Part shown: positions 939 to 42,500 of the stretch, in pieces
How positions within the stretch are numbered: the stretch's first letter is position 1
Layout: each line of letters opens with the position of its first letter
Origin: Bacteroidaceae bacterium
GTDB lineage: Bacteria > Bacteroidota > Bacteroidia > Bacteroidales > Bacteroidaceae
Direction of reading: 5' to 3'
Assembly: GCA_017556045.1 (NCBI GenBank)
Contig: JAFZFF010000076.1
Span: 1-43,302, forward strand
DNA length: 43,302 nt
Position numbers and translations under genes: made by a program
Notes under the pieces: model-generated
The model's input: only the letters and a program-made list of their open reading frames with translations
Database searches by the model: none
What the model was told of the DNA's origin: nothing

Positions 939-2354
939 ATGTTTGAAGGCATAACGAGAAATCATAGAGAGAATCTCTCTCTTGCTATACAGAATAACAA
1001 GCGCATGGTGGATACCTCAGTTCGGAGATGTGCCTTGTGGTGTGCTATGCTCATTGGTGCACTCGTAGTACCTAACTGTAGTAAAGCTCAGCAAAGAGAC
1101 CAAGTCTTGTTTCAGCGATTCGAAGAGCGCTTCTATATGCTCGACTCGCTAATCTTCCATTGTGAACCGGATGGGAGGATGGGCATGACGAGTTGTGTAT
1201 CACAAGGGTATACGACAAGTGTCGTAGACTCACTCATCGACAAGAAAGTAGAGGTGCAACAGCGCGCTGTAAAAGCCGAGACGGGACTGCTCATATCGGG
1301 ACAGACCTATTATCGCTCTGGCGAGGGAACGAGTGTAGATCCCGACGAAAATGATGCCTTAGAGGCTTATAACGCCAAGGTACAGGTAGAGTTGAGATGG
1401 AACATCATCAGTAGTGGAATTCACAACCGCAAGGGGCGTCTCAATGAATTGTCTATCGAAGGTAAACTGGAACATGCCTATCAGGAACAGGAGCGCCTAT
1501 CTCTAATGATAGAGAGACAGAAGCAGAGTTTCTGCGAAGAGTATGACAGTCTCCTGGGTGGTATACTCCAGTTGCGTATAGAGAATCTGCAGTTATTGAA
1601 TGATGCACAGACCTATTTGGCATCGGATCGCAGCATAGGCACTGATGAACTGCTAAAGGTGATGGACGAGCAAGCTATTGCCGAGCGATTGCTTACGACC
1701 ATTCCTAAGGACTACCCTATAGCTGCGCAATTGGCAAGACCACAGGGCGATATCATCTATCTTGACACAGCACAACTCAAGAACTGCATCCGCGAGAATA
1801 CTCTCTTGCTGCAAATGATGGACCTCAAGATAGGTCTATTAAAACAGAAGGAAGAGAATACGAGCTATTGGAATGCTCTGAATATATCTCCATTCCTAAG
1901 ATACTCATATTACATGCGCCCCGAGGTGAAGAACCCAGCGACTGTGGATGTGGGCGTAGCTTTCCAGATACCGCTATCGAGTCAGGAGCCTCGCAAACGT
2001 AAGGTATTGACCGCTGAACGTCTACAGAAAAATGCAGAGAAGGAGGAGCTGAAGGAGAAGTTGATGACTGAGGTAGAAGCGATGTTAGCAGAGATCGAGC
2101 GTGCCAACCAGGGAATGCAAGGTGAACTCAAGCGCATCGAGATGCTGAGGGGGTATATGCAGCAGCGCCGACAACACTACCAAGGACATATTGGAGAATA
2201 CAACTTCATGTCGAGAATAAAGGAGTATAACCACTACTTGACATGCTGGGAAAACTACTATTCATATCAGTATAAAAGAGATTGTTACATGGCAGACCTA
2301 CAGGCATTCCTATCTCGACAGTCCATCGTAGACTTCTGCATGATTCAAAAGTGA
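939..2354 (+). CDS. TolC-like outer-membrane channel protein of the EPS locus
   Basis: A 471-aa predicted exported protein. A hydrophobic signal segment (ALWCAMLIGALVVP) precedes a small-residue cleavage site near residue 50. The start at residue 1 gives an unusually long n-region; ATG at 1005 (residue 23, MVDTSVRRC) is a good alternative. The mature part is rich in long charged helices, with heptad-like stretches around residues 165-240 and 360-420. Between them are short amphipathic strands, such as the run after NISPFLRYSYYMRP followed by VDVGVAFQIPLSS, which fit the strand-helix-strand duplication of TolC/OEP proteins. It is the first gene of a five-gene operon and lies 14 nt before the adaptor gene. 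Its likely role is the outer-membrane exit duct for the polysaccharide. The fold call is by pattern, not by a strong sequence motif. Confidence 0.7.
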   Translation: MFEGITRNHRENLSLAIQNNKRMVDTSVRRCALWCAMLIGALVVPNCSKAQQRDQVLFQRFEERFYMLDSLIFHCEPDGRMGMTSCVSQGYTTSVVDSLIDKKVEVQQRAVKAETGLLISGQTYYRSGEGTSVDPDENDALEAYNAKVQVELRWNIISSGIHNRKGRLNELSIEGKLEHAYQEQERLSLMIERQKQSFCEEYDSLLGGILQLRIENLQLLNDAQTYLASDRSIGTDELLKVMDEQAIAERLLTTIPKDYPIAAQLARPQGDIIYLDTAQLKNCIRENTLLLQMMDLKIGLLKQKEENTSYWNALNISPFLRYSYYMRPEVKNPATVDVGVAFQIPLSSQEPRKRKVLTAERLQKNAEKEELKEKLMTEVEAMLAEIERANQGMQGELKRIEMLRGYMQQRRQHYQGHIGEYNFMSRIKEYNHYLTCWENYYSYQYKRDCYMADLQAFLSRQSIVDFCMIQK

Positions 2355-2368
2355 GAGAGAGACAGATT

Positions 2369-3541
2369 ATGAAAGATTTTCATTTTACCACCGAACAGGA
2401 GCAGGCCGAGATAGAAAAAATCCTGCAACAGCGTAAGAAGAAGCAGACCAAACAACAGACCTTGTTTATGGCAATCTTCGTCTTCATCATAGGAATAATC
2501 ATTCTGTATTGTGTACGTAGAATTGTGTATATAGACTTTAATGGATATGTAGTGGTACACAACGTACGATTCCGCGCTTCAGAAGACATTTTCGTACATG
2601 ATATATACAAACATAATGGTGATTTGATCAAACCTGGTGATACCATATACTCATATGTATCGCTTGATTGGTTTCACGAGATTGGCAACATCAACTCAGA
2701 ATCAGAGGTTATAGTAAAGTCTCGTGACCTGAAGGTACAGTACGGATTGGCCTATCAAAACCTCGCTGTATTGAGAGCTAAGATGGAAGAGATCAAACGA
2801 CAAATCGATTTGGAGGACCACAATATCCGCTTCGGCCTTAGCGACAATGTTCACAAACTTCAATTGGAGCGTGAATACAAAGAGACAGAAGAGGAACTCA
2901 AGGCTCAGCAACGAAAGCTATATGTGCTACAAAAGGCTATCAATGAATCTAAAGATGCGGTAGACCGACTAGGAGAAGTAAGTGCCGGATTTACTATTCA
3001 GAACGTGCGCAACAAGCAGAAGATGAAGGAACTGGGCGTGGTGCACTATACCGTAGCTGCCGACTCGGGAGTAGTGACACGTAACTGGATTTCAGAGCTC
3101 TCGCTCGTATTACGCGGTGAGGACATCATCGAGACCCAATCATTCGACCTCGATAAAGACAATGTGTATGTGATGGCTTATGTCACACCTGACCGTGCGA
3201 AGTATATCAATCGTGGCTTTAAGGCTAAGGTAATCGTCAATGACGATGTGGAGTATACGGCAACAGTAGTATCTATGGGAGCACGTACAGAGCCTATACC
3301 TGAGGCATATCGTAACAATCTTTCGAAGGACCATATTGCAGCCATCGCTGTGTTGCGTATCGATCCTGAACAGAAGATTCCATTTTGGTCACTGGTAAAT
3401 GGAATGCCTGTACTGATACGATTCAACAATAAGGATTACGAGGATGTAGGTTCGGATGATTACATCCAACTGAAAACTCCAAGGGGTCTGGAAGTTCCTA
3501 AAAAAGTAAAAGATTATCTGTATTTTAACAATAGAAACTAA
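2369..3541 (+). CDS. HlyD-like periplasmic adaptor (membrane fusion) protein
   Basis: A 390-aa protein. I place the start at ATG 2369, because an upstream in-frame start at 2282 would overlap the previous gene by 73 nt. Residues 1-25 are charged and cytosolic, then one transmembrane helix (about 31-52, LFMAIFVFIIGIIILYCVRR). A lipoyl/barrel-like half follows (VVVHNVRFRASEDIFVH, GDLIKPGDTIYSYVS), then a long coiled-coil hairpin (about 130-225) and a C-terminal beta-barrel half (VYVMAYVTPDRAKYINRG). This is the HlyD/EmrA topology, also seen in Alg44 of alginate synthesis and BgsB of the Sinorhizobium mixed-linkage glucan system. Its stop codon overlaps the next start by one base (TAATG), so translation is probably coupled. 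It probably bridges the inner-membrane synthase and the TolC-like duct. Confidence 0.85.
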   Translation: MKDFHFTTEQEQAEIEKILQQRKKKQTKQQTLFMAIFVFIIGIIILYCVRRIVYIDFNGYVVVHNVRFRASEDIFVHDIYKHNGDLIKPGDTIYSYVSLDWFHEIGNINSESEVIVKSRDLKVQYGLAYQNLAVLRAKMEEIKRQIDLEDHNIRFGLSDNVHKLQLEREYKETEEELKAQQRKLYVLQKAINESKDAVDRLGEVSAGFTIQNVRNKQKMKELGVVHYTVAADSGVVTRNWISELSLVLRGEDIIETQSFDLDKDNVYVMAYVTPDRAKYINRGFKAKVIVNDDVEYTATVVSMGARTEPIPEAYRNNLSKDHIAAIAVLRIDPEQKIPFWSLVNGMPVLIRFNNKDYEDVGSDDYIQLKTPRGLEVPKKVKDYLYFNNRN

Positions 3542-4929
3542 TGAACTATAGTTATCGGATTAAAGCAAACCCGAAAGGACGCAATATACTTATCGTGCGA
3601 GGATTAGTGCAGCTAGATAATGTCAGCGATATCAAGGCTGAAGATTTCGATGCCATCTACATTGAAGACTATGGGCAATCGCATAGCGAACTATCGTTTC
3701 AGCTGCAAAGCATGTCGTCTATACACGGCATGAAGTCTCACCTGAAGCCCCGATTCTTAGCTGCTACACTGAAGCCCCATGTACACCAACTAAAACCTTT
3801 GGTTGATGGCTTTGCGACGACACCTGACGATGAGAAGATGAGCGAGCGTATCGAGGAAATTTACGATAAGTTGGCATACATTGATCTCTTTGATATATCA
3901 GAGGTTAGAACAAATAACTATGTATATTTTTTGAAGTTGTGCAAACATGCCATATCGAGAGGTTTATACACATTTACCACCTCATTGGAGGCAGCATACG
4001 CACAAGGACACACTGCTTTGTTTTTAGCTAAGCAAGATAGTTTGACCACTAATATGAGGAGTGAATTTGTTCGTTTCAATCAGACCTTGCGAGAGTTGGG
4101 TTATGCAGAACGCAAAAAGTTCGAGGAGCGTATCCATGTGTGTCCACACTGCAAAGGCTCTCACCTGTTCTATATGGAGGCTTGTCCTAAATGCGACTCC
4201 TCGCTCCTGAAAGAAGAACCTGTATTGCACCACTTCCGTTGCGCTAATATCTCACCAGAGTCGAGTTACGCCTATGATGGAGAGCTGCGTTGCCCCAAGT
4301 GTCATCAGATGCTCCGTCATATCGGTGTAGATTATGACCGTCCAGCCAACGTGTACACATGCCAAGAATGCAGCCATACCTTCTTGCATACGCGAATGAA
4401 GGTATATTGCACATCGTGTCAAAAGACATCAAGACCTTCGGATTTGTTGGCGCAGGACATCTACAGCTATGAGTTTACGACAGAAGGACTGCAAGCCTTA
4501 TCATCAAACGACGCATTGCTGGCTGTAAGTAAAGATGTATGGGCCGGTTACTCTCGATTTGATTCCTTTTTGTCGCAAATCCGACTTTTTTCATACTCGC
4601 ATGAAAAGAATGAGTCAGTTCTCATCAACCGCTTCAAACTCGAAGGCAATGTCAACAGAGAAGGGATCATGCACTTTGTGGATGACCTTCAGAGGAAGTA
4701 CCACTATCATAACCTCTCATACAATTCTCATTACATCTTTTTGGCAGCTAAAGTGCAGCATAGCAGGATGGAGACACTAAAGAAACAGATGGAGGAGGAA
4801 TATTTGGAACTGCAACGAATCGTCGAACTGAGAAATCTTGGCACAAAGTTAGTCGACCAGGATTTTCTATACCATACTGAGGGTGAGAAAATTGATAATT
4901 TCATTAAGAGGATAAGCAAAAGTCAATAA
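3541..4929 (+). CDS. Cytosolic multi-zinc-ribbon protein, TackOD1-like
   Basis: A 462-aa protein with no signal peptide or membrane segment. The N-terminal ~150 residues have alternating strand/helix patterns (FDAIYIEDYGQS, PRFLAATLKP) that could be a degenerate receiver-like fold. The middle holds Cys pairs at 201/204 and 215/218, Cys234, 251/254, 274/277 and 290/293: at least four CxxC knuckles, enough for two or more zinc sites. The stretch around LRHIGVDYDRPANVY followed by CxxC resembles the TackOD1 (thaumarchaeal output domain 1) zinc domain. The C-terminal ~150 residues are helical with no family I recognise. It overlaps the adaptor gene by one base and sits 13 nt before the synthase, so it is likely a regulator or assembly factor of the synthase. 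That role is inferred from context. The TackOD1 name is moderately sure; the zinc binding is strongly supported. Confidence 0.75.
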   Translation: MNYSYRIKANPKGRNILIVRGLVQLDNVSDIKAEDFDAIYIEDYGQSHSELSFQLQSMSSIHGMKSHLKPRFLAATLKPHVHQLKPLVDGFATTPDDEKMSERIEEIYDKLAYIDLFDISEVRTNNYVYFLKLCKHAISRGLYTFTTSLEAAYAQGHTALFLAKQDSLTTNMRSEFVRFNQTLRELGYAERKKFEERIHVCPHCKGSHLFYMEACPKCDSSLLKEEPVLHHFRCANISPESSYAYDGELRCPKCHQMLRHIGVDYDRPANVYTCQECSHTFLHTRMKVYCTSCQKTSRPSDLLAQDIYSYEFTTEGLQALSSNDALLAVSKDVWAGYSRFDSFLSQIRLFSYSHEKNESVLINRFKLEGNVNREGIMHFVDDLQRKYHYHNLSYNSHYIFLAAKVQHSRMETLKKQMEEEYLELQRIVELRNLGTKLVDQDFLYHTEGEKIDNFIKRISKSQ

Positions 4930-4942
4930 GAGGAGAAATACC

Positions 4943-6265
4943 ATGTTGGATTTCTGTTTTGACATATTAGATGGCATTATAGCTTGCTTCACTCGAAATC
5001 TGTCATGGAGTGCGGTTATCAGCACCTATTGGTTTTTGTTTGCAATCGAGTTTCCACGCTATTACCTGTTGGAATTCGTTATCGCAATCTGGCACAAGAT
5101 AACCTACAAAAGCAGAGCGAGAAAACGGGCTGTGGCAAGGATGAAACTCTACATAGAAAACCCACTAATAACTATCCTAGCCCCAGGAAAGAACGAAGGT
5201 AAGCATATCTATAAGCTGGTAAAGTCACTCAATGAACAGACCTATCGTAACTATGAGATTATCATTGTCGACGATGGGTCAGATGATGCCACCCCATTGA
5301 TATGTAGAGATTTGGAGAAGGCCGGATACATCGATTTGTATCTGCGCTCCAATATACGTGGAGGTAAGGCTAGTGCTGCCAACTTTGGCGTACACTATGC
5401 AAAGGGAAAGTATATCGTACACCTCGATGCAGACTCCTCACTCGACCGCGATGCTATAGAGAAAATCCTCATCCCCTTCTACTATGATCCAAAGATTAAA
5501 GCTGTTGGAGGTTGCGTCAAAGTGCGCAATGCAGGCGACACGCTGTGTACCTCAATGCAAGCGTTAGAGTATCTGAAGACGATTCAAGTGGGCCGTATGG
5601 TAACAAATACGCTGGGGATTTATCATATCATATCGGGTGCTTTCGGAGCTTTTGAGCGTGAGAAGCTAATGCAGATAGGTATGTGGGATATAGGTCCAGG
5701 CCTTGACGGAGATATCACGCAGAAGATTAGAAAGTCTGGTGACAAGGTATACTTTGCCGAAGATGCCATCTGTATGACCAATGTACCTACCGAGTGGCAT
5801 GCTCTCTTCAAGCAACGCCAGCGTTGGAGCAAATCGCTTATTCGCTTCCGCTTGCGCAAGCATTTTGACATATTGATGCCGCACAAGCACTTCAGCTTCC
5901 TAAATTGGCTATCAAATATGGAAAATCTACTTTTCGACTGCATATTTAACTACCTGTGGCTGTTTTATATAATATCACTGATGTTCGTACACACCGACAA
6001 GCTAATGGAAATATTCCTCATCGGATGGATGATTAGATACTGCTTCTCTTTAGTAGCATTCGGAGTCATCATGCTGGTATCAGAGCGAGCATCCGAAGAG
6101 CGAAAGCTGATACCCTACCTATTTGTCAGCACATTCTACACAGGCTATTTCTTGCGTGCTACACGTTTGATAGCACATACTAAAGAACTCTTCTTCTTCT
6201 CGTCTTATAAAGACCCATGGAATCCGAAGAAGACATCAGACTTAGCACAGATTGAAGGAATTTAA
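4943..6265 (+). CDS. Membrane family-2 glycosyltransferase (processive polysaccharide synthase)
   Basis: A 440-aa inner-membrane glycosyltransferase. An N-terminal hydrophobic segment (about residues 15-50) precedes a GT2 GT-A domain with all the signatures of processive synthases: D110/D111 (VDDGSDD) for nucleotide binding, the DxD metal motif D162-A-D164 (HLDADSS), the acceptor-site D255/D257 (GLDGDIT) and the product-binding QxxRW motif at Q291-W295 (QRQRW). Three or so C-terminal transmembrane helices follow (about 325-350, 355-385 and 395-415), as in PgaC, hyaluronan synthase and BcsA, so the chain is probably extruded during synthesis. No PilZ domain is fused. The substrate cannot be read from sequence, but the adjacent dehydrogenase suggests an activated uronic acid or amino-uronic acid is at least one building block. 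Confidence 0.9.
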   Translation: MLDFCFDILDGIIACFTRNLSWSAVISTYWFLFAIEFPRYYLLEFVIAIWHKITYKSRARKRAVARMKLYIENPLITILAPGKNEGKHIYKLVKSLNEQTYRNYEIIIVDDGSDDATPLICRDLEKAGYIDLYLRSNIRGGKASAANFGVHYAKGKYIVHLDADSSLDRDAIEKILIPFYYDPKIKAVGGCVKVRNAGDTLCTSMQALEYLKTIQVGRMVTNTLGIYHIISGAFGAFEREKLMQIGMWDIGPGLDGDITQKIRKSGDKVYFAEDAICMTNVPTEWHALFKQRQRWSKSLIRFRLRKHFDILMPHKHFSFLNWLSNMENLLFDCIFNYLWLFYIISLMFVHTDKLMEIFLIGWMIRYCFSLVAFGVIMLVSERASEERKLIPYLFVSTFYTGYFLRATRLIAHTKELFFFSSYKDPWNPKKTSDLAQIEGI

Positions 6266-6289
6266 TAACAATTTATAAATTACAAAAGT

Positions 6290-7561
6290 ATGGATATAAA
6301 AATAGGAGTGATAGGATTAGGCTATGTGGGCTTCCCCTTGGCCTGCTTATTTGCCAAAAAGTATCAAGTTATCGGATATGACATTAATGAAAATCGTATC
6401 AACGAGATAAATCAGGGTATTGACTCTACCAACGAGGTCGCTCCAGAAGCATTGAAGAATGCTTTGGCCAATGGCATGGTGTGTACAAATCGTATTGACG
6501 ACTTGAAAGTGTGTAACGTGTATGTAGTAGCTATCCCTACTCCAGTGGATGACTTCTACAATCCTGAGCTCATGCCCCTAAAAAATGCCAGTATCGTAGT
6601 AGGTGAAGTGCTCAAGAAGGGCGACTACGTAGTATATGAGTCGACCGTATATCCTGGTGTGACAGAAGAAATCTGTGCTCCCATTTTAGAGGAAGTATCA
6701 GGGTTGAAGTTGAATGAAGATTTCTTTTTGGGTTACTCGCCTGAGCGTATCAACCCGGGCGATAAAGAGCACACTGTGGAGAACATCCCAAAGATTACCT
6801 CAGGTTCTACCCCTGAAGCAGCTGAAGTTATCGACGCATTGTACAATTCAGTATTGCTCAATGGTACCCATCGAGCCTCCAGTATCAAGGTTGCAGAGGC
6901 GGCTAAGATTTTGGAAAACACACAGCGCGACGTTAATATTGCATTCATGAATGAAATTGCGATCATATTCAACGCGTTAGGCATCGACACTACTGATGTG
7001 TTAGAGGCCGCAGGAACTAAGTGGAACTTCCTGAAGTTTAGTCCTGGTTTGGTAGGAGGACACTGCATCAGCGTTGACCCCTACTACTTGATACAACGTG
7101 CCACTTCACGCGGAGTGGTTCCACGCATTATGATGGAAGCTCGTCGACTCAACAATACAATGGGAAACTATGTGGCCGAACGAGTAGTACGCTGTCTTAA
7201 CCTGCACGATATATCAGCCCACAATGCAAAGTTTCTACTATTGGGATTCACCTTCAAGGAGAACTGTCCCGATATCCGCAATACGAAGGTGGTAGACATA
7301 TACAATGCATTGAAAGCTTACACTACAGACATCTGTGTGTATGACCCTTGGGTAAGTAAGGAATCGGCAAAGCACGAATATGGTGTCGAAGTAAGCACGG
7401 ACGAGCGTGACTTAGAGTATGGCCAGTACGATGCAGTCATCTATTGTGTAAAGCATGACTGTTTCAATTCTCTCGGTCTTGATTCATTACGCAAGCCCAA
7501 CGGAGTTTTCTACGATGTAAAGGGAGTACTTGACAAGAGCATCATCACTGAACGTTTGTAA
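6290..7561 (+). CDS. Nucleotide-sugar 6-dehydrogenase (UDP-HexNAc/UDP-glucose dehydrogenase family)
   Basis: A 423-aa NAD-dependent enzyme that oxidises C6 of a UDP-sugar to a uronic acid in two steps. The Rossmann GxGxxG is at the N-terminus (GVIGLGYVGFPLA), with the glutamate/serine loop YESTVYPGVTEE. The catalytic Cys259 lies in GGHCISVDPYYL, and the C-terminal UDP-binding domain begins near GFTFKENCPDIRNTK. The GHCI.VDPYYL form and the WNFLKFSPGLVGG stretch fit the WbpA/TviB/WecC branch, which uses UDP-GlcNAc, -GalNAc or -ManNAc, better than the classical UDP-glucose branch. Substrate specificity is still a guess. It is the last gene of the operon, 24 nt after the synthase, and is followed by a strong terminator. 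It presumably supplies the uronic donor to the synthase. Confidence 0.9.
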   Translation: MDIKIGVIGLGYVGFPLACLFAKKYQVIGYDINENRINEINQGIDSTNEVAPEALKNALANGMVCTNRIDDLKVCNVYVVAIPTPVDDFYNPELMPLKNASIVVGEVLKKGDYVVYESTVYPGVTEEICAPILEEVSGLKLNEDFFLGYSPERINPGDKEHTVENIPKITSGSTPEAAEVIDALYNSVLLNGTHRASSIKVAEAAKILENTQRDVNIAFMNEIAIIFNALGIDTTDVLEAAGTKWNFLKFSPGLVGGHCISVDPYYLIQRATSRGVVPRIMMEARRLNNTMGNYVAERVVRCLNLHDISAHNAKFLLLGFTFKENCPDIRNTKVVDIYNALKAYTTDICVYDPWVSKESAKHEYGVEVSTDERDLEYGQYDAVIYCVKHDCFNSLGLDSLRKPNGVFYDVKGVLDKSIITERL

Positions 7562-7587
7562 TCCCTCTCGGCTATTGTCTAACAATA

Positions 7588-7623
7588 AAACACGGGGCAA
7601 GACCATGATCTTGCCCCGTGTTT
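7588..7623. terminator. Bidirectional rho-independent terminator
   Basis: A perfect 12-bp GC-rich stem (7591-7602 with 7609-7620) encloses a 6-nt loop and is flanked by AAA on the left and TTT on the right, extending the pairing to 15 bp. It sits between the end of the convergent EPS operon (7561) and the end of the minus-strand lipoprotein gene (7645), and can serve both. Confidence 0.9.
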
Positions 7624-7644
7624 ATAATCTATTATTTACTACAT

Positions 7645-9735
7645 TTATTTCTCAATCAAGCGGAAGATTTGTACACCGCTAAGGCCATAAGCCACGTACA
7701 AGATGTCATCAGACAAAGTGACGTAGTTGGCAGATTTACCACCTGCATAACGGTACGATGTAACTACAGACAGGTCATTCTTGTCAAGAACAAACAGACC
7801 ACCATGGCCGTAAGCTACATATACATACTTGTCATCTACTGTCAAGCCATTAGCTGCAGCAATAGTGTCGCCACCAACCTTGAACGCGGCTACCTCAACG
7901 CCATTGGTATAGCGCTTCACACCATTCTTACCCAAACATACATAGGCGTCGTCACCCTCTAAGTGCAACACATTCTTACCATTGACAGGCGCAATTACAT
8001 CCAGCTCGGTAGTGAGCAAAGGATTGCTGAAGGTGTAGTCAGATGCATTGTAGACATTCAACTCTGCCATAGACTGCTCTGAATTCTTGTCTGTAAGCGA
8101 TATTATACCCATATTGGTACCATCAGAGCTGATGAACTTAGATGATCCTGCCGAATTCACAGATGCCAATGTTGCGAACGAGGTGGCATCAAGTGTGCGG
8201 TAACCGCCATTGGTGGTCACATGTAAGTAATCGCTATTGCGGATGACACAGCTAGCTGATGAGCCCCCCTTGAGCTTCACTTGAGTGAACTCGGCTGCAT
8301 TGGTCTGGAAGATGCCATCGCTCAAGCCTACAACACCAAGGAATGCACCATTCTTAGGCTCACCACCAGCGGTGATGATGCGGTCGCCATCCACGATGAG
8401 ATGGTTGAAGTCAAAGGTAGGATGCTCCATGAAAGAGAGGATAGAGCAGATGCCATCAGTAACGTTCATTACCTCGACGCAACCATGGAAGCCATCACCT
8501 TGAGTGTGGTATGATACATAAGCTTTTTCGCCTACTGTCTGGATGCATGTAGAGGAAATGTAGTGACCATGGTCAGGTGTCACCACCTGTGCAATGTGCT
8601 CAAGACCTACCACCAACTCAGGCTCAACTTCGGGCTGAGTGCCAAACTCGGGGTGACATCCCTCAGCTGCAAGGTAGGTGTCGCCATTGAATTTGATACT
8701 TGAGAGCCACTCCAACTCACTACCACTGCGGTTATCAATCTCTTGATAGTGAATATCCATCCAACCGGTGAACATTTCCTTCACGTTGCTCTGGTTAATT
8801 TCAATCTTGTCTGCTGCAAGTACAGCATACTCCATATCACCACCCTCAACAGTGATTGTACACGGATTTCTCATGTAGAGCACATCTGTGTCAACAAGGC
8901 TTCCGGCTTTAATTTGCAATAATGATGCAGAGTTCATTTCCACCGAAGGAGATGAGAGGTAGCTACCCACAAGGAGATCAGCATTGTTGTGTAGGATAAG
9001 ATACTCATCAGCAAAGATACCGCACTCTACATGACACACCGCATTCTCACGCACCTCAACCACCGAGGCTGACAGGGCATCACCAACATAGAGCGTACCA
9101 CCTACCCAGATCTCAGGATAACAGAGGTCGCCCGAGGTCATAAACGTAGACCCCATATTGATATTGAAGCGGCTTTCACCAGTGATATTGAAGTCACCAT
9201 AGCTGTATACATTAAGTTCGTGCATGGGCATGTGTGACGGATAGTTCACCTTACCGCCAGGCAACACAATGAGTGTACCCTTACCCCAAAAGTTATTGAT
9301 AGTAAGTTCACCACTGATATAGTATGTATTTCCCTTGAATTGTACATCTTTGGTCAGGGTAGATCCTGCAGGCAAGAAATAGTCCTTAGCCTCGGCTGCC
9401 CAACCCTGATAGTTGTCGTCCATCACCGCATCATACTGGGGCGATTCTGGTGCTTCAGGCATCGTAAGAATCGCCTTTGTTCCTCTTGTCACTATAGTAC
9501 TGGACTTCTTGCCATACATAGTAACGCGTTTTGACAACTCGGCACTGTTATTATTAACAATCACCGAACTTTTTGTTAACTCTGCCTGCGGTAAATCCAC
9601 TCCTCCATCATCTTGTTGACATGAAGCCAATGAGATTACAACTGCTGCTAAACCCAGGTACTTTGCCACTTTTAAGGTCGCAAACGGATTTCTGTTCCTA
9701 AGCGTGAAATTCGCTTGTGATAAGTGTCGGTTCAT
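7645..9735 (-). CDS. Exported lipoprotein: beta-helix-like N-half and beta-propeller-like C-half
   Basis: A 696-aa protein. After a long n-region comes a hydrophobic signal (YLGLAAVVISLASC) with a lipobox ending at Cys39, so a lipid-anchored, probably surface-exposed protein is expected. Residues ~120-330 contain repeated short strands and right-handed-helix-like patterns (STFMTSGDLCYPEIW, ASLLQIKAGSLVDTD), resembling parallel beta-helix or adhesin folds. Residues ~370-696 carry repeats of the LVIVD/YVTN propeller type (KYVYVAYGHGGLFVLD and SDDILYVAYGLSGVQIF). It converges on the EPS operon and shares its terminator, but nothing in the sequence links the two functions. A -7 box lies at 9785-9792. 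I do not know its ligand. Similar architectures in Bacteroidota are usually annotated as hypothetical or LVIVD-repeat proteins. Confidence 0.75.
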   Translation of the reverse strand: MNRHLSQANFTLRNRNPFATLKVAKYLGLAAVVISLASCQQDDGGVDLPQAELTKSSVIVNNNSAELSKRVTMYGKKSSTIVTRGTKAILTMPEAPESPQYDAVMDDNYQGWAAEAKDYFLPAGSTLTKDVQFKGNTYYISGELTINNFWGKGTLIVLPGGKVNYPSHMPMHELNVYSYGDFNITGESRFNINMGSTFMTSGDLCYPEIWVGGTLYVGDALSASVVEVRENAVCHVECGIFADEYLILHNNADLLVGSYLSSPSVEMNSASLLQIKAGSLVDTDVLYMRNPCTITVEGGDMEYAVLAADKIEINQSNVKEMFTGWMDIHYQEIDNRSGSELEWLSSIKFNGDTYLAAEGCHPEFGTQPEVEPELVVGLEHIAQVVTPDHGHYISSTCIQTVGEKAYVSYHTQGDGFHGCVEVMNVTDGICSILSFMEHPTFDFNHLIVDGDRIITAGGEPKNGAFLGVVGLSDGIFQTNAAEFTQVKLKGGSSASCVIRNSDYLHVTTNGGYRTLDATSFATLASVNSAGSSKFISSDGTNMGIISLTDKNSEQSMAELNVYNASDYTFSNPLLTTELDVIAPVNGKNVLHLEGDDAYVCLGKNGVKRYTNGVEVAAFKVGGDTIAAANGLTVDDKYVYVAYGHGGLFVLDKNDLSVVTSYRYAGGKSANYVTLSDDILYVAYGLSGVQIFRLIEK

Positions 9736-21884: not shown

Positions 21885-22910
21885 TTACAATACTTGTTCA
21901 TTCTCAAAGGGTAGTTCCCCCAAGAATCTATCAAAATCACTCAAGAATAGACGGTCTTGTATGATTCGGTATTTCTCAAATTCTGTTTCGGCATGATTCT
22001 TTGCCTCTTCAGCCGTGATTCGTCCTTGTGTTTGCAACACCTCATTGCCACCAGCCGCCAAGATGAGGTCTATCTGCTTTGCCCAGTCCTCCATGGTCAT
22101 GGGGATATGTCGCTTGGCCATCCGTTCAGCTAATTCGAGCACACCATTCACGAGTTGTCCCATATCGGCCAGTTCCACCTCTTTTAGGTAATTCTTGGCT
22201 ATTGACACATCTGTCTTCACTATCTTCCCATCAGGAGCGTTCTCCCATGTGGTGAGCCCCATGTGTTCTTGCGTGGCGTCAGCTCGCTCCACTATTAGTT
22301 CGGCAGCTGTACGTCCGTGTACAGCATAGTGCATCTTGTTTTGCATCATCTTGAAGAACATTCTCGTGGTAGGAGCATCGCGGTTATAGTCCACGGCCGT
22401 AGAGTAGATGTCGGTCAGTTTCTGATAGAAGCGTCGTTCAGAGAGGCGTATCTCTCTAATCTCTGCCAGTAGATGCTCGAAATAGTCTTCACCGAGGAAG
22501 GTGCCGTTCTCCATGCGCTTCCTGTCCAACACATAGCCTCGTATTGCATAGTCGCGCAAGACGCTCGTAGACCATTGGCGGAATTGTGTGGCACGGATAG
22601 AGTTCACGCGGTATCCAACAGCGATAATTGCGTCTAAGCTATAGAATTTTGTACTATATGTTTTACCATCCTCAGCAGTATGTGCAAATTTTGCACATAC
22701 TGCTTCTTCTATTAATTCGTTAGAGTTGAAGATGTTGCTCAGGTGTTTTGTTACAACACTTCTGTCGCAATCGAATAATGTTGACATCACTTTCTGCGTA
22801 CACCATATATTCTCATCTTTATAGTATACCTCTACGCCCTGTTCCTTGCCCTCCACTTGGAATATCAAGAACTCCGCTGTGCTATTTCTTATTTCTCTAC
22901 GCTGTGCCAT
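21885..22910 (-). CDS. RhuM-family protein (virulence protein RhuM domain)
   Basis: A 341-aa soluble protein. The N-terminal region with VYYKDENIWCTQKVMSTLFD, a predicted helix-turn-helix-like segment (RSVVTKHLSNIF), the conserved KFYSLDAIIAVGYRVNS and ATQFRQWSTSVLRDY motifs, and the later ERRFYQKLTDIYSTAVDYN block identify the RhuM family. The family occurs on pathogenicity islands, integrative elements and next to restriction or toxin genes; its biochemical role is not established. Length is normal and the frame intact. It stands alone, with an inverted-repeat element downstream and a MITE-like repeat 8 nt before its start codon, consistent with recent acquisition. No promoter box is obvious outside the repeat. 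Confidence 0.9.
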   Translation of the reverse strand: MAQRREIRNSTAEFLIFQVEGKEQGVEVYYKDENIWCTQKVMSTLFDCDRSVVTKHLSNIFNSNELIEEAVCAKFAHTAEDGKTYSTKFYSLDAIIAVGYRVNSIRATQFRQWSTSVLRDYAIRGYVLDRKRMENGTFLGEDYFEHLLAEIREIRLSERRFYQKLTDIYSTAVDYNRDAPTTRMFFKMMQNKMHYAVHGRTAAELIVERADATQEHMGLTTWENAPDGKIVKTDVSIAKNYLKEVELADMGQLVNGVLELAERMAKRHIPMTMEDWAKQIDLILAAGGNEVLQTQGRITAEEAKNHAETEFEKYRIIQDRLFLSDFDRFLGELPFENEQVL

Positions 22911-23450: not shown

Positions 23451-26300
23451 ATGAAAACGAACACATTTTACACAAAGAAAGTGCTGGTGGCGCTATTTGC
23501 GATGCTGCTGCCCCTCTTAGCCAATGCCGAGAAAGTTGAGATTGACGGCATTTGGTACAACCTCATATCGAAGGTCAAGCAGGCCGAGGTAACATATAAG
23601 GGGAATAGCTATGATGAATACTCAGATGAGTATTCCGGCTCCATCACCATCCCCGCTACGGTGATCTACGGGGGAGTGGAGTATAACGTGACGAGTATTG
23701 GAAATGATGTGTTCTGTTGGTGCATCAGCCTCACCTCCATCACCCTCCCAGAGAGCGTGACGAGCATTGGGAACAATGCTTTCTATAATTGCATCAGCCT
23801 CACCTCCATCACCATTCCCGAGAGTGTGACGAGCATCGGAGAGTGGGCTTTCGGTGGTTGTAGCAGCCTCACCTCCATCACCATCCCCGAGAACGTGACG
23901 AGCATCGGGAACAATACTTTCTGGGGTTGCAGCAGCCTCACCTCCATCATTATTCCCGAGAGCATAACGAGCATTGTAAACCATGCTTTCTATGGTTGCA
24001 GCAAACTTACCTCCATTACTGTAGATGAACGGAATACGGTGTATGACTCTCGTAGTGGGTGTAATGCGATTATAGAAACTAATAGCAATACCCTAATTTT
24101 AGGATGCTCTACAACAATCATCCCCGAGAGCGTGACGAGCATCGAGAACAATGCTTTCAATGGTTGCGAAAGCCTCACCTCTATCACCATCCCCGAGGGC
24201 ATAACGAGCATCGGAGAATGGGCTTTCGCTGGTTGTAGCAGCCTTACCTCTATCACCATCCCCGAGAGCGTGACGAGCATCGGAATGGGTGCTTTCTCTG
24301 GTTGCAGCAGCCTCACCTCCATCACCATCCCCGAGAGCGTGACGAGCATCGAAGAATTTGCTTTCTCTGGTTGCAGCAGCCTCACCTCCATCACCCTCCC
24401 AGAGAGCGTGACGAGCATTGGGAACAATGCTTTCTATGATTGCAGCAGCCTCACAGATGCGTATTGCTACGCAGAGGATGTTCCTGAGACAGGTACTGAT
24501 GGATTCTATGATTCAAATATTTGGAATGCCACTCTACATGTGCCCGCCAGCGCATTAAATGCCTACAAGACCACTGTGCCTTGGACTAGCTTTGGCACAA
24601 TTGTTACAATCAAGGGAACCGATTCCAAAGTCGAGATCAATGGTATTTGGTATAACATCGATGCAGAGGCCAAGCTGGCCGAGGTGACATCAGGAGAGAC
24701 GAAATATTCTGGCTCCATCACCATCCCCGCTACGGTAACCCACGAAGGTAAGGAGTATAGCGTGACGAGCATTGGAAATGAGGCGTTCAAGTATTGCTAT
24801 AACCTCACCTCCATCACCATCCCTAAGAGTGTGACCAGCATAGGAGACGATGCTTTCGATTATTGCAGCAACCTCACCGCCGTACATATCAGCAGCATTG
24901 CTGCTTGGTGTAACATTAAATTCTCACGTTACGACTCCAATCCCCTCTACTTTACAGGGAATCTATACTTAAATGGAGAGTTGGTGACAGAATTAATCCT
25001 CCCTGAGAGCGTGACGAGCATTGAAAACTATACTTTCTATGAATGCCACAGCCTCACAGCAATCACTATCCCTGCGGGCGTGAAAAGCATTGGAAGCCAA
25101 GCTTTCTTAGGTTGCAACAGCCTCACCACAATCACCTTCCCCGAGAATTCGCAGCTGACGAACATTGGACGCAGTGCTTTTTCTGTTTGCAAGAGCCTCA
25201 CCGCCATTACTATCCCCGAGAGCGTGACGAGCATTGGAGCGTGGGCTTTCTCTGGTTGCAGCAGCCTCACCTCCATCACTATCCCTGAGGGCGTGACGAG
25301 CATTGAAGAGTGTACTTTCTCTAGTTGTAGCAGCCTCACTACCATTACTATCTCCGAGAGCGTGACGAGCATTGGATACGGTGCTTTCTATGGTTGTAGC
25401 AGCCTCACCGATGTGTATTGCTACGCAGAGGATGTTCCTACGACAAAAACTAATGCATTCGAAGATTCAAATATTGAAAATGTCACTCTGCATGTGCCTG
25501 CCAGTGTGCTTTGGGTTTATAAGACGACTGCACCTTGGAGTAAATTCAAAAAATTTGCCATCGTACCACAATCCCTAGTTCTGAATGATGGGGATGATTT
25601 CGAGAACGAGGAGAATATGATAGTGGAAGAAATCACCTACACCCGCACCTTCAATAATACCAACTGGCAAGCTTTGTATGTACCCTTTGAGATAGAGATT
25701 ACCGAAGAACTTCTTGCCGACTTTGAGGTAGCTAAACTCAATGATGTACGTCAGTATGACCGCAATGACGATGGAGAGAGGGACGAAACGGTGATTGAGT
25801 CATTCAAGATGACAAAGGGCACTATGAGAGCAAACTATCCCTACCTCATCCGTGCTAAGGAAGCAGGTAAAAAGACTATCACAGTGACCGACGCTACGCT
25901 GTATGCTACCGAGGAGAATAGCATCGACTGCTCATCTATATGCGAGAAATTCACCTTCACTGGCACATATAGTTGCCTGTCATCTGACGAACTTCCACAA
26001 GGCCAGGGCTACTATGCACTGAGTGGTGGAGTATGGCAACCTGTGGCTGAGAATGCATCGCTCGGTGCATTCCGTTTCTACCTCAAAGTGGAGAGTCGTG
26101 ATGGTTTGAATAACGAAAGCAATAAGGCCATCCGTATGCGCATTATCGGCGAAGATGGCACAACCGAAATCTGCGAGTTGGAGTTGTCTGGCAATGGTCA
26201 GCAGTCGGCAGTAGTGTACGATTTGCAGGGTCGCCGCATCAACAATATCAGCAACCTCAAGGGCATATACATCGTAAATGGCAAGAAGATAGCATTCTAA
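23451..26300 (+). CDS. BspA-like leucine-rich-repeat surface protein
   Basis: A 949-aa exported protein. The signal peptide (VLVALFAMLLPLLANA) is cleaved near residue 26. Two homologous modules follow, each opening with KVEIDGIWYN (residue ~28) or KVEINGIWYN (residue ~393). Each then runs through 23-residue TpLRR repeats of the type LTSITIPESVTSIG..AF.GC and closes with DAYCYAEDVPET or DVYCYAEDVPTT plus LHVPAS...YKTT.PW. The C-terminal ~200 residues form a beta-sandwich-like region ending VYDLQGRRINNIS..KGIYIVNGKKI, which resembles the C-terminal sorting tail common on Bacteroidales surface proteins (possibly type IX secretion). BspA family members bind host matrix proteins; that role is inferred here. 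A 50-aa peptide gene follows. Confidence 0.93.
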   Translation: MKTNTFYTKKVLVALFAMLLPLLANAEKVEIDGIWYNLISKVKQAEVTYKGNSYDEYSDEYSGSITIPATVIYGGVEYNVTSIGNDVFCWCISLTSITLPESVTSIGNNAFYNCISLTSITIPESVTSIGEWAFGGCSSLTSITIPENVTSIGNNTFWGCSSLTSIIIPESITSIVNHAFYGCSKLTSITVDERNTVYDSRSGCNAIIETNSNTLILGCSTTIIPESVTSIENNAFNGCESLTSITIPEGITSIGEWAFAGCSSLTSITIPESVTSIGMGAFSGCSSLTSITIPESVTSIEEFAFSGCSSLTSITLPESVTSIGNNAFYDCSSLTDAYCYAEDVPETGTDGFYDSNIWNATLHVPASALNAYKTTVPWTSFGTIVTIKGTDSKVEINGIWYNIDAEAKLAEVTSGETKYSGSITIPATVTHEGKEYSVTSIGNEAFKYCYNLTSITIPKSVTSIGDDAFDYCSNLTAVHISSIAAWCNIKFSRYDSNPLYFTGNLYLNGELVTELILPESVTSIENYTFYECHSLTAITIPAGVKSIGSQAFLGCNSLTTITFPENSQLTNIGRSAFSVCKSLTAITIPESVTSIGAWAFSGCSSLTSITIPEGVTSIEECTFSSCSSLTTITISESVTSIGYGAFYGCSSLTDVYCYAEDVPTTKTNAFEDSNIENVTLHVPASVLWVYKTTAPWSKFKKFAIVPQSLVLNDGDDFENEENMIVEEITYTRTFNNTNWQALYVPFEIEITEELLADFEVAKLNDVRQYDRNDDGERDETVIESFKMTKGTMRANYPYLIRAKEAGKKTITVTDATLYATEENSIDCSSICEKFTFTGTYSCLSSDELPQGQGYYALSGGVWQPVAENASLGAFRFYLKVESRDGLNNESNKAIRMRIIGEDGTTEICELELSGNGQQSAVVYDLQGRRINNISNLKGIYIVNGKKIAF
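23679..25422 (+). repeat. Tandem 69-bp LRR-coding repeats in the BspA-like gene
   Basis: About 18 repeat units of 69 bp encode 23-residue TpLRRs in two blocks (about 23679-24450 and 24755-25422). Many units share long near-identical DNA, for instance CCTCACCTCCATCACCATCC and GAGAGCGTGACGAGCAT. This gives room for slippage or recombination that would change repeat number. Confidence 0.85.
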
Positions 26301-38831: not shown

Positions 38832-39545
38832 TTACTCGTCGGCCACAAGGTTATCGGCATCGATGATGCGTAGCTCGATGGCGCGCACCACGAGGCGGGT
38901 GACATTGACGCCGCGCTGCTCGCTCGGTGTGAAGAGGCGTCCGATGAGGTCTATCTGTCTGCGCTCGAGTGACTTAGGGCTGAAGGGCATCGTCGGTAGC
39001 GAAGAGATCATCTCCTTGGTATAGCCGAGGGCGAGGTGGCGCAAGAGGCGCTCGTCATACTCGTCGATGTCGTAGGCCAGCATGGCCTTGTTGCGTATGA
39101 CATCGAGCTGTACCGACTGGCGGAAGCGCGCGATGATCTTCTCCAATATGGGTTGGTTAAAGACATAGTTCTTGCCCTCCATCACGCTACGGATCTCGCC
39201 TCGGGTGAGCAGCTCGCCTGTCTTGAGGACTATGCCACAGGCACCTGCGTCGAGGGCATCTATCCATAGTCGCTCATTGAGCACCTCGCCTGTGAAGATG
39301 AGCACCTTCACCTCGGGATAGCGCTCCTTGATGGTGCGACAGATAGATACGCCTATCGTGGTGGAGCCACCAAGGCCAAGGTCGAGCAACACCATATCGG
39401 GTAGCTGCTGCTCCATGAGTGGCCAAAACTCCTCTTCGGTCATGGCAGTGCCTATGACCTGTGCTTCGGGGATCTCGTTACGGAATATCTCTTCGGTTCC
39501 TTTGAGTTCGAGCTTTACGTCTTCTACTATTATTACGTTGTACAT
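38832..39545 (-). CDS. Response regulator (receiver plus LuxR-like DNA-binding domain)
   Basis: A 237-aa cytosolic response regulator. The receiver domain (1-125) has the acidic pair E8-D9, the phospho-acceptor Asp55 (MVLLDLGLGG), Thr85 and Lys108. After a linker is a helix-rich C-terminal part (about 160-237). DERLLRHLALGYTKEMISSL followed by SPKSLERRQIDLIGRLF fits a divergent GerE/LuxR-type helix-turn-helix, as in NarL-class regulators. It is 33 nt downstream of the sensor kinase gene, so it is its natural partner. The final valine-rich helices (VTRLVVRAIELRIID) complete the fold. Targets are not evident. Confidence 0.9.
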   Translation of the reverse strand: MYNVIIVEDVKLELKGTEEIFRNEIPEAQVIGTAMTEEEFWPLMEQQLPDMVLLDLGLGGSTTIGVSICRTIKERYPEVKVLIFTGEVLNERLWIDALDAGACGIVLKTGELLTRGEIRSVMEGKNYVFNQPILEKIIARFRQSVQLDVIRNKAMLAYDIDEYDERLLRHLALGYTKEMISSLPTMPFSPKSLERRQIDLIGRLFTPSEQRGVNVTRLVVRAIELRIIDADNLVADE

Positions 39546-39578
39546 ATCTGTATTTTTGAGTGATGTATTGCTGAGTTA

Positions 39579-42500
39579 TTATTGGGCTTCGGTATGCACC
39601 AGGGGTATCGTAAACCACACTGTATGACCACGGTCGGTGGCGTCGGCCTTGATGCGGCAACCGGGATGGCCGAAGTTGCTATCGTGCTCGCGCATGATCT
39701 GACGAGCCACCACATACTCCATGCCACAGACCTTGCCATCGGGCGTTTGCCTGAGGCGCTCGGGCGAGGGAGCGAAGAGGTCATTCATCGCCTCGCGCTC
39801 CATGGTGCGCGACATATTGATGAGCTCAAAGCGCACGAAACACCCGTCAGGGCTTGCCTGGAGCACGAGCTCGTCGGTAGCCGAGTGGGCCAGCGAAGCA
39901 TCGATGAGCTGCTCTATCAAGAAGGCGATGAGCTGAGCATCACACGACACCTGGGCACTACAACTACGGATGGTGAGCGCAGGGGCCATGGGGTATTGCT
40001 TGAGGCGCTTGGTGTGGTAGCTGAGGGCTTCTCCAAGGAGCGCGTCGGCCGCTATCGTCGTACGACGGAAGGTGACCTCATCGAGCTGGCGTGAGGCACA
40101 GGCGGTGAGGGTGGTAAAGATGGTCTTGTAATACTCTACCAGCTCCTTCATCTGGAGGCGCTCGTCATGCTCATCGAGGCGGGTGACAAGTTGCCTGATG
40201 CGGTTAGGATAATAGATGGTCTCGTGCTTGATGGTAGAGAGGCAATTGTCGAGCACCATATTCTGCACGTGTAGGCGATTTTTCTCATGACGGGCACGGC
40301 GCTCATCCTCCTCGACCTCCTCGATATCGCGATAGGCACTCTCTACCCTACCCATGAAGGCATGTATGATGACGGCCAGGTAGCCCAACACCAACAACAC
40401 ACATATGAGTATGGCTACGGAGATATTGCTATTGTAGCGCTGCATACGATCGCAATACTCGAGGAGCGAGCGGTCTTCGCTCACGAGCTTGTAGAGGTCA
40501 TTATAGATGCGATTGTTATATCTGTACTCGCCCCAACGACGTAGCGCGAGGTTGGCCACGGCCAGCTCATTGCGCACATCGAGGATGGTGTGATAGTCGG
40601 TAGAGAAGTCGCTGAGCCACCAGCGGGTCTCCACATCGCTCTCGCCCATAGTGGCCGTCAGCTCACCTATGTAGTCTTCGGCATACTTGTGATGGTGGGC
40701 ATTGAGATATACAAAGGCTGAGTCGGCATAGCGCAACGCCTCGGTATATAGCCCCTGTAGATTGGCATAGTAGACACTATCGGCAAAGGCAGATGCCCTC
40801 ACCAGCAACATATCATAGTCGGCACCCATCAGGTCGGCCTCATAGGGAGCACTCGTCACAGAGGTGAAGGTGGTATCGGCCTCTGGCAAGGCATAGCTAC
40901 TGGCGGGCATCAAGAGGCAGAGCAGGAGCATCATGCGGCGCACGCCCTTGGGCAGGCGGAACCAAAATCGGCATCCTCCCTCTGTACGATTCTCCACACC
41001 GAAACGACATACATCAAACAGGGCGTCGGTCTTGCGATATTTATCTATGATACCCTTGCAATTGAGCAGGCCAAATCCGCTTCCCTTATGCTTGTGGTGC
41101 ATGGGAGGGAGGTTTTTACCTATAGCGGACGCGTCGTGTACTTTTGTACAAAGGATGTGCTCTATATCCTCCTCTGACATGCCCAAACCGCTATCTGCTA
41201 CGGACAATTCTACATACTCATCGGTAGCCTCGGCGGAGATCTCCACGAGCCCTCCCTCGGGGGTGAACTTACGCGCATTGTCGGCCAAGGTATTGAGCAT
41301 GAAGAAGGTGAGCGCCTTGTCGGCCTTGACCACCGCATCAGTATGCTTCACCTCGAGGGTGAGCCCCTTATGAGCAAAGGAGGAGGCACTGCGCTCGATC
41401 ATATCAAACACCTCGCTAAGGGCAAACGACTCAATATGGAGACCCACCATACCTTGCGTGGGCTTGACCCACTTAGTGAGTATATCATTCAGGCTATTGA
41501 TCTCTGCCGTGAGCTCAGACACATACTCGAGCTTACGCGCACGCAATGCCTTGTCACCCCATACCTCGGGATCTTGTAGGCGCTCTATCTCATGCGCCAT
41601 GCGATCTATGTAGGGCATGATGCCTGTGACGACGGAGAACGAAGCCTTGCGCACGATGTTGTCACGCTTGCCCGACTCTATATGCTTGCGGTGCAGATAT
41701 ACGCGCTTGCCGGCCTCTTGAGCCAACTCAATGAGCTTCTGCTCATAGCCTCCGCCCTGCTTGCGACGCCTATTGAGCAGATAGATGAGCAGGGCCAGCA
41801 CCAGCATACCTGCTACGGCGACGTAGAGCATGGCATCCATCCTGCGACGCTGGCGCTCGAGAGAGTGATAACGGCTCTCCAGCTCCTTGTCTTGCCTGGT
41901 AGTCTCGAGCAAGTCGAGGTACTGATTGCGGTGATAGTCAGAGCCCTCCTTGTCGCCCAGCCCTGCGTAGGAGAGGCTTGCCTCCTCATGCATACGGGCC
42001 ATGACATCGGGAGCACTCACAAGGTCTTCGGCCAAGGGCAACATGGAGAGAGCCACCTCATACTCGTCGCGACGATTGTGGAGTGAGGCCATCTGCACTA
42101 TGGCTGACCACACACCATAGGCATCGCCATAGCGATCTAACAAATATAGCGCCTCACGGGCAAAATCCATGCTCATGGTCACTGATGCATGGGCCGAATC
42201 GGCGAGTTGCGAGAATGAGTTGGGGCGCATACGAGCAATATACTCCGTGCGCACCGTATCGGCCAGTAGCTGGGAGAGGGCCATCGAAGATACTCCTGAG
42301 AAGTAGTCGTACTCGCCTACCCTACTCGTACGCAAGCAGTTGTTAAGGTATGTATAACGGCGCAACATACGCTGCTCGCGCGTATCTCCATCGACATTGA
42401 TGCCTATACCCCTGAGATATGTATACATGAGCCACTGAGCCGTATCGGCACGCAGAGCATCATCCTCTACCACATAGGCCATCTCGGCATTTGCCTCAGG

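Follow-up and report, generated by a model that had tools for sequence, protein, structure and literature searches.

A conserved glycan synthase operon of Bacteroidota with a TackOD1 protein, a likely variant of the Shewanella Mxd kind

The DNA analyzed here is a stretch of 43,302 nucleotides (the window) of contig JAFZFF010000076.1, from the Bacteroidaceae assembly GCA_017556045.1. Between positions 939 and 7,561 of its plus strand it carries five genes that are part of a conserved module. The core of this module consists of four genes, coding for an outer-membrane protein (OMP), a HlyD-type adaptor, a protein with the TackOD1 domain and a family 2 glycosyltransferase (GT2), and in the window they are joined by a nucleotide-sugar dehydrogenase. 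From sequence comparisons we propose, with a probability of about 0.7, that its products synthesize a single surface polysaccharide and export it through a tube composed of the synthase, the adaptor and the OMP, with the TackOD1 protein as control subunit. The operon resembles the Mxd system of Shewanella oneidensis and seems to be its variant in Bacteroidota. The machine is conserved and its general type is known, but we found no description of this variant.

The run starts with the gene of the OMP (939 to 2,354, 471 residues), whose true start may be position 1,005, where an in-frame ATG stands ahead of what by eye is a signal-like stretch. It is followed by the genes of a HlyD/EmrA-type periplasmic adaptor (2,369 to 3,541, 390 residues), the TackOD1 zinc protein (3,541 to 4,929, 462 residues), the GT2 membrane glycan synthase (4,943 to 6,265, 440 residues) and a TviB-like dehydrogenase of UDP-N-acetylhexosamine (UDP-HexNAc) type (6,290 to 7,561, 423 residues). 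The successive genes are separated by 14 nucleotides, a 1-nucleotide overlap, 13 nucleotides and 24 nucleotides.

The conservation of the module was assessed with a profile of 15 TackOD1 proteins, which found 509 relatives in named genomes. The best 80 of these 509 were kept, and their record titles are nearly all of Bacteroidota or Balneolota, with single ones of Nitrospirae, Desulfuromonadales and "Kuenenia." Two loci without a TackOD1 open reading frame (ORF) in our ORF set (L043 and L073) were dropped, and 26 of the remaining 78 were short of the flank needed (at least 5.5 kb upstream and 3.5 kb downstream of the TackOD1 gene), which left 52 loci. In all 52, the GT2 gene comes directly after the TackOD1 gene, and 51 have genes for an OMP and a HlyD adaptor no farther than 8 kb away. 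The contiguous order OMP-HlyD-TackOD1-GT2 is found in 33/52 loci and the same order with the dehydrogenase ahead of TackOD1 in 10/52. Elsewhere, a gene for the lipoprotein LIP (see below), a dehydrogenase in split form or an ORF of 212 codons is interposed (L029, L030, L034, L046, and L061), the adaptor is split (L066), the OMP-HlyD pair stands about 5 kb away (L101 and L106), or neither of the two is present (L077). LIP itself lies within 8 kb in 13/52 loci. An earlier note on this DNA, made from the sequence alone, had taken the genes for one module in which the TolC-like/HlyD pair goes with the GT2, and this is borne out. The five-gene order that it proposed to search for across Bacteroidota is kept in part: the four-gene core persists, but a dehydrogenase lies within 8 kb of it in only 24/52 loci. 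Within the window's family, 13 loci hold the GT2 (L006, L007, L170 to L179, and L184) and nine of them read OMP-HlyD-TackOD1-GT2-dehydrogenase, if one includes L006 with its split GT2. The exceptions have the dehydrogenase first (L173) or lack it in the ORF map (L175, L176, and L178). The GT2 of L006 (genome G001, 6,553 to 7,862) is made of two overlapping ORFs, which could be an assembly error or a real break.

The distribution of TackOD1 is patchy. The domain exceeds its cut-off in 5/61 genomes of relatives and in 12/395, 42/399 and 12/393 genomes of the phylum, family and order samples, respectively, and in 0/14 control genomes. In the window's genus (19 genomes, 62 to 93% complete) it occurs in three genomes, and the GT2 (E ≤ 1e-30) occurs in the same three. 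Orphan TackOD1 genes were seen in the genus g15 (e.g., L180, 7,068 to 9,019, and L008, 7,343 to 8,824), where one further locus, L181, has a GT2-like ORF of 280 codons near TackOD1.

The fourth protein is a clear member of GT2 (Pfam E 1.4e-26). It carries QRQRW at residues 291 to 295, with Q291, R292, R294 and W295 invariant in 38 aligned synthases. The QxxRW motif is kept in all rows of the GT2 alignment (A4), where the window protein is 48 to 53% identical to 34 non-plasmid rows and 27 to 31% identical to 3 proteobacterial ones. Two hydrophobic stretches are found at residues 329 to 347 and 357 to 375. The best NCBIfam model is PgaC, with 149.5 bits, well under the cut-off of 422.3. Against the PDB, the GT2 profile matches chondroitin synthase (E 3.8e-31), 6yv7 ("Glycosyl transferase, family 2"; E 1.1e-22), and hyaluronan synthase chains (E 1e-21 to 5e-18).

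The first protein is probably a TolC/OEP-like outer-membrane channel, placed mainly through its relatives. Homology to the OMPs of other loci is supported by hhalign (99.5%, E 9e-23, 407 columns). Pfam OEP recognizes 13/50 of those OMPs (E ≤ 0.01) and, in the window's own clade, one out of five additional OMPs (42.3 bits, cut-off 22). No TPR was matched by Pfam in the window OMP, in agreement with the earlier remark that there is no porin with TPR. The adaptor barely exceeds the cut-off of Pfam HlyD_3 (22.7 versus 22.2 bits) and has a single hydrophobic stretch, at residues 31 to 49, behind a short N-terminal tail; adaptors of different phyla are homologous (hhalign 99.1%). Pfam GH18 is matched by 2/50 OMPs of other loci. 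By eye, the OMPs of L009 and L085 have a C-terminal extension resembling a sugar-hydrolase barrel, with no Pfam call in L085.

The dehydrogenase may tell us what kind of sugar is involved. It matches all three UDP-sugar dehydrogenase domains of Pfam and passes the general nucleotide sugar dehydrogenase model (377.5 bits, cut-off 189.8). Its best NCBIfam model is TviB (484.6 bits, under the equivalog cut-off of 592). In the PDB, its three top-ranking matches are Cap5O and two enzymes that are of UDP-HexNAc type by their names. The active-site stretch GGHC..VDPYY is one that we take to be of the UDP-HexNAc type. The protein looks like an enzyme of this type, and the sugar would therefore be an N-acetylhexosaminuronic acid instead of the plain uronic acid proposed earlier. 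A related dehydrogenase (30% identity) is encoded elsewhere in the genome, so the sugar supply may not be exclusive to the operon. A quick tree of the GT2, in which some branches are long, requires five changes in the presence of the dehydrogenase, and the dehydrogenase gene stands behind the GT2 in the window's clade and mostly ahead of TackOD1 in flavobacteria and Balneolota. Together, these two observations suggest that it was recruited more than once. The proposal of a uronate is therefore limited to this subtype.

The third protein, which had been called a zinc-ribbon protein without recognition of the domain's name, is a TackOD1 (PF18551) protein (E 1.4e-45, 155.6 bits, cut-off 32). It has an N-terminal domain (residues 1 to about 130), the TackOD1 match (174 to 311) with 11 of the 11 conserved cysteines, and a C-terminal domain (about 317 to 462). 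No hydrophobic stretch was found in its 462 residues. We cite published work here by PMC number and from excerpts of the papers; one of them terms the function of TackOD1 obscure (PMC5847659). In other loci the region after TackOD1 matches Pfam GGDEF in 12/74 cases (E ≤ 0.01) and its profile matches GGDEF chains of the PDB at E 7.6e-6. As judged from these profiles, this region is, as a family, a GGDEF relative in the Bacteroidota loci. By eye, the GGDEF motif is present in 0/98 aligned TackOD1 rows, some of them near-duplicates. Of the RxxD site, 34 of the 98 rows keep both residues, 50 the Asp alone, 1 the Arg alone and 13 neither; the row with the Arg alone is the window protein, where the alignment is unsure. 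The N-terminal domain was tried as a receiver homologue and gave only 0.2 to 0.3% in hhalign; as receiver homology was not detected, we do not call it a pseudo-receiver.

The relatives in other phyla link the operon to a known system. TackOD1, GT2 and HlyD genes follow each other in that order on plasmid or chromid records of Plesiomonas, Photobacterium and alphaproteobacteria. Pfam GGDEF is matched by the TackOD1 proteins of Plesiomonas (41.6 bits) and Aeromonas (35 bits; cut-off 23.8) and is not over the cut-off in three alphaproteobacterial ones; by eye, those of Plesiomonas, Photobacterium and Aeromonas are without the GGDEF motif. In Photobacterium (L109, 4,476 to 11,441), a LapD-type HAMP-GGDEF-EAL protein is encoded ahead of TackOD1-GT2-HlyD and a DHH-DHHA2 protein behind. 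The mxdABCD cluster of S. oneidensis is required for three-dimensional biofilm (PMC3691769, PMC3409153, and PMC7666153). MxdA has a degenerate GGDEF (PMC3409153). It binds both cyclic di-GMP (c-di-GMP) and CheY3 and acts as an effector of c-di-GMP (PMC7666153 and PMC11395469). MxdB is a GT2, MxdC an efflux-type protein and MxdD a protein of no known homology (PMC3691769). The excerpts of two further papers hold nothing on Mxd proteins (PMC9100107 and PMC12772357). We tentatively place the operon with Mxd, compared by its published description only, because gene layout and domain kinds agree with mxdABC: a control protein, which is of TackOD1 type in the window and the gammaproteobacterial relatives and has a degenerate GGDEF in the latter, stands in one cluster with a GT2 and an efflux-type or HlyD protein. 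The window differs by the order OMP-HlyD-TackOD1-GT2, by having its own OMP, by the added UDP-HexNAc-type dehydrogenase and LIP, and by a genome (78% complete) with no GGDEF and no PilZ match, the latter as the earlier note had it for the operon.

The gene set had also been taken for a candidate undescribed system. Since it fits the mxd outline (PMC3691769) and cyanobacterial cellulose, made by a GT2 synthase, has been suggested to leave by a HlyD/TolC route (PMC12430437), its kind is not wholly undescribed. This cyanobacterial XcsAB-TolC route likewise joins a GT2, a HlyD-like adaptor and TolC in a proposed tripartite export, a model (Maeda 2018) that the review terms unproven. It differs from the window operon by a PilZ in the synthase and by parts that are scattered in T. 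vulcanus, and the excerpts of the review mention no TackOD1 (PMC12430437). Archaeal TackOD1 proteins have the same domain, the 11 conserved cysteines and fusions to receivers but lie in type IV pilus loci or are response-regulator outputs (PMC5847659), whereas the partner in the window is a glycan synthase. RND or ABC efflux and type I secretion differ in that Pfam finds no inner-membrane pump among the five window genes. The poly-N-acetylglucosamine (PNAG) system, whose PgaC/IcaA is the closest NCBIfam model of the GT2, differs by the PgaA-type porin and PgaB that Pfam does not find in the window operon. The synthase-dependent Bcs cellulose, Alg and Pga systems use a PilZ or other c-di-GMP receptor and a TPR porin, none of which was matched by Pfam, for PilZ in the genome and for TPR in the OMP. 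No description of this operon in Bacteroidota appeared in the titles and abstracts of the literature searched, which mostly left subscription papers outside.

What signal would such a control subunit receive in Bacteroidota? Above the cut-off, GGDEF was found in 0/36 TackOD1-bearing Bacteroidota genomes (part of the 64 genomes with TackOD1 over the cut-off in the genus/relative, phylum, family, and order samples), and the lone weaker match, in genome G263, lies by its coordinates inside the ORF of the TackOD1 protein itself. The same search was positive in 8/14 control genomes. Hence, c-di-GMP control was probably lost or replaced in these Bacteroidota. A guess at the present input is the phosphorylation of receiver domains. 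It is based on the receivers fused to TackOD1 in 6/15 members of the profile alignment (A1), on a stand-alone receiver gene (Response_reg, 102 bits) behind the orphan TackOD1 gene of L180, on LytTR regulators directly upstream in L029 and L034, and on the binding of CheY3 to MxdA.

The five genes of the earlier reading stand, but it overlooked a convergent sixth partner outside its coordinates, the lipoprotein LIP (7,645 to 9,735, minus strand; 696 residues, lipobox Cys39). Between the two convergent genes lies a strong hairpin, at 7,588 to 7,623 (15 to 16 pairs, -28.9 kcal/mol, z -7.2 versus 200 shuffles); LIP is transcribed toward the operon from its opposite side. The hairpin is a minus-strand terminator-like site in a terminator scan with 8 sites in total versus 7.5 expected, and is possibly a two-way terminator. 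The five genes, their spacings and a terminator-like hairpin behind them had all been given before and are confirmed. LIP is 72% identical to the product of the gene immediately upstream of the OMP gene in genome G002 and 26% identical over 349 columns to a flavobacterial homologue. After iteration, 26 homologues were found in 25/110 loci searched, and the lipobox cysteine is invariant in the 19 that were aligned. The C terminus has propeller-like repeats, with weak Pfam matches in relatives: among eight LIPs, LVIVD or DUF5074 is matched weakly in some, DUF4114 clearly in two (flavobacterial/balneolote) and nothing in two others. No notable solved relative was found, the best PDB matches being antibody chains, none better than E 0.03.

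LIP goes with the synthase across genomes. In 48 chosen genomes it was found (E ≤ 1e-5) in 17/18 with the GT2 and 0/30 without (Fisher 4e-12, uncorrected for kinship); G023, whose sole GT2 match is 31% identical, is counted here as lacking the synthase, and the numbers are otherwise 17/19 and 0/29. The LIP match is on a different contig from the operon in G056, G692, G1016 and G1134, and those of G056, G1016 and G1134 may be mere family members. In the phylum sample, scored with three candidates per genome, the LIP family (E ≤ 1e-20) occurs in 9/12 TackOD1-positive genomes, in seven of them on the same contig within about 6 kb. Among the 52 loci, LIP is found in 13/24 with the dehydrogenase and 0/28 without (p 4e-6, uncorrected). 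On the tree, the mere three independent pairs give no power to tell a link of the two from shared ancestry.

We can thus propose how the machine might work. The dehydrogenase would oxidize UDP-HexNAc to the corresponding uronic acid, as its family suggests. The GT2 would polymerize UDP-sugars and drive the polymer across the membrane by a channel of its own, as expected from its kinship with PgaC and hyaluronan synthases. Given the conserved partnership of their genes, the adaptor would join the GT2 to the TolC-like OMP, and this tripartite tube would replace the TPR porin. The TackOD1 protein would be a subunit on the cytosolic side that switches the synthase on and off, the role ascribed to MxdA in Shewanella; a cytosolic control role had been suggested for the zinc protein in the earlier note, and the MxdA-like gammaproteobacterial relatives fit it (PMC7666153). 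The ancestor in Bacteroidota may have had a pseudo-GGDEF domain, and the present input would be something other than c-di-GMP, given that no GGDEF enzymes were found in the TackOD1-bearing genomes. LIP would be at the cell surface, holding or shaping the polymer.

Several observations weigh against parts of this proposal. The dehydrogenase is not near the core in 28/52 loci. The loci were picked by TackOD1, and as the best 80 of 509, so that the frequency of the domain without the operon cannot be read from them. In the genus g15, TackOD1 is present and this GT2 absent in 8/9 of the genomes in which the two were looked for, and the domain must therefore have other uses. The TolC-like nature assigned to the first protein in the earlier note is probable from homology to the OMPs of other loci, but the window protein alone is under the cut-off of Pfam OEP (E 0.075), as are four of the five scanned OMPs of its clade. 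The OMP profile found no TolC-type chain and no other relative in the PDB, and hhalign with one TolC-like ORF gave nothing. The C-terminal domain of the TackOD1 proteins of the window's clade reaches only 0.2% (4 sequences) or 5% (21 sequences) probability against GGDEF in hhalign; with the 21 sequences the match is in register at E 0.007, and three controls gave E 0.07 to 0.3. Finally, the LIP family is found in 20/383 TackOD1-negative genomes of the phylum sample and is missing from 3/12 positive ones.

Could the parts be assembled differently? The TolC/HlyD pair might be an ordinary efflux or type I secretion system with its inner-membrane part elsewhere, the GT2 and the dehydrogenase being bystanders. 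EmrA is the best solved-structure match of the HlyD profile, some OMPs are of OEP type, and L188 has an unnamed ORF of 871 codons between HlyD and TackOD1. Yet the pair stays with the synthase in nearly all loci, which is why we do not favor this explanation and regard it as very improbable. What comes between HlyD and TackOD1 is a dehydrogenase, LIP, split copies or the 212-codon ORF of L061, and no pump gene was seen in the operon maps, in which some ORFs are unnamed and pump families were not searched for. It is also unlikely that the GT2 is a single-step transferase acting on a lipid or a capsule while the adaptor serves another cargo. The best PDB matches, chondroitin synthase and 6yv7, the latter a family 2 enzyme by name alone, and the absence of a known product would allow it, but QxxRW and the C-terminal hydrophobic stretches are as in processive synthases, and both the closest NCBIfam model, even far under its cut-off, and the hyaluronan synthase matches point the same way. 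A third explanation keeps the machine but makes TackOD1 a structural or assembly factor. It deserves somewhat more credit, even if we doubt it: TackOD1 persists next to the synthase also in loci whose GGDEF part has lost its motifs, but MxdA, which binds c-di-GMP and CheY3, is termed an effector (PMC7666153 and PMC11395469), and the receiver fusions suggest a signal input. We therefore retain the on/off subunit of a polysaccharide exporter as the preferred role.

The surroundings of the operon were also inspected. A pattern search for the consensus of a Bacteroides-type promoter upstream of it gave no match, and the repeats there are few and short. A PHROGs search gave nothing informative. By eye, the window encodes a RhuM-like protein (21,885 to 22,910), a long BspA-like surface-type protein with leucine-rich repeats (23,451 to 26,300) and a response regulator adjoining a large protein of sensor type, in which some parts resemble TPRs and others a kinase (38,832 to 43,025). 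RhuM-like proteins are often found on mobile elements.

These results may have implications beyond this operon. TackOD1, whose function has been termed obscure (PMC5847659), gets a testable role, and a little-studied biofilm operon of Shewanella is linked to a module found across Bacteroidota. The compactness of the system, a synthase with a pump-like exporter, makes it suited to structural work. We tentatively suggest, with the odds leaning slightly the other way, that the TackOD1 proteins form a broad class of subunits that control processive glycan synthases. In Bacteroidota, a machine of Mxd type would have outlived c-di-GMP, its pseudo-GGDEF subunit now answering to receivers or another ligand, and would have gained a channel, a supply of HexNAc-uronate and a surface lipoprotein. 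It would be a natural case of a control domain of the c-di-GMP type that persists in genomes where no GGDEF enzymes were detected, and its interest rests on TackOD1 and the missing signal more than on the channel alone.

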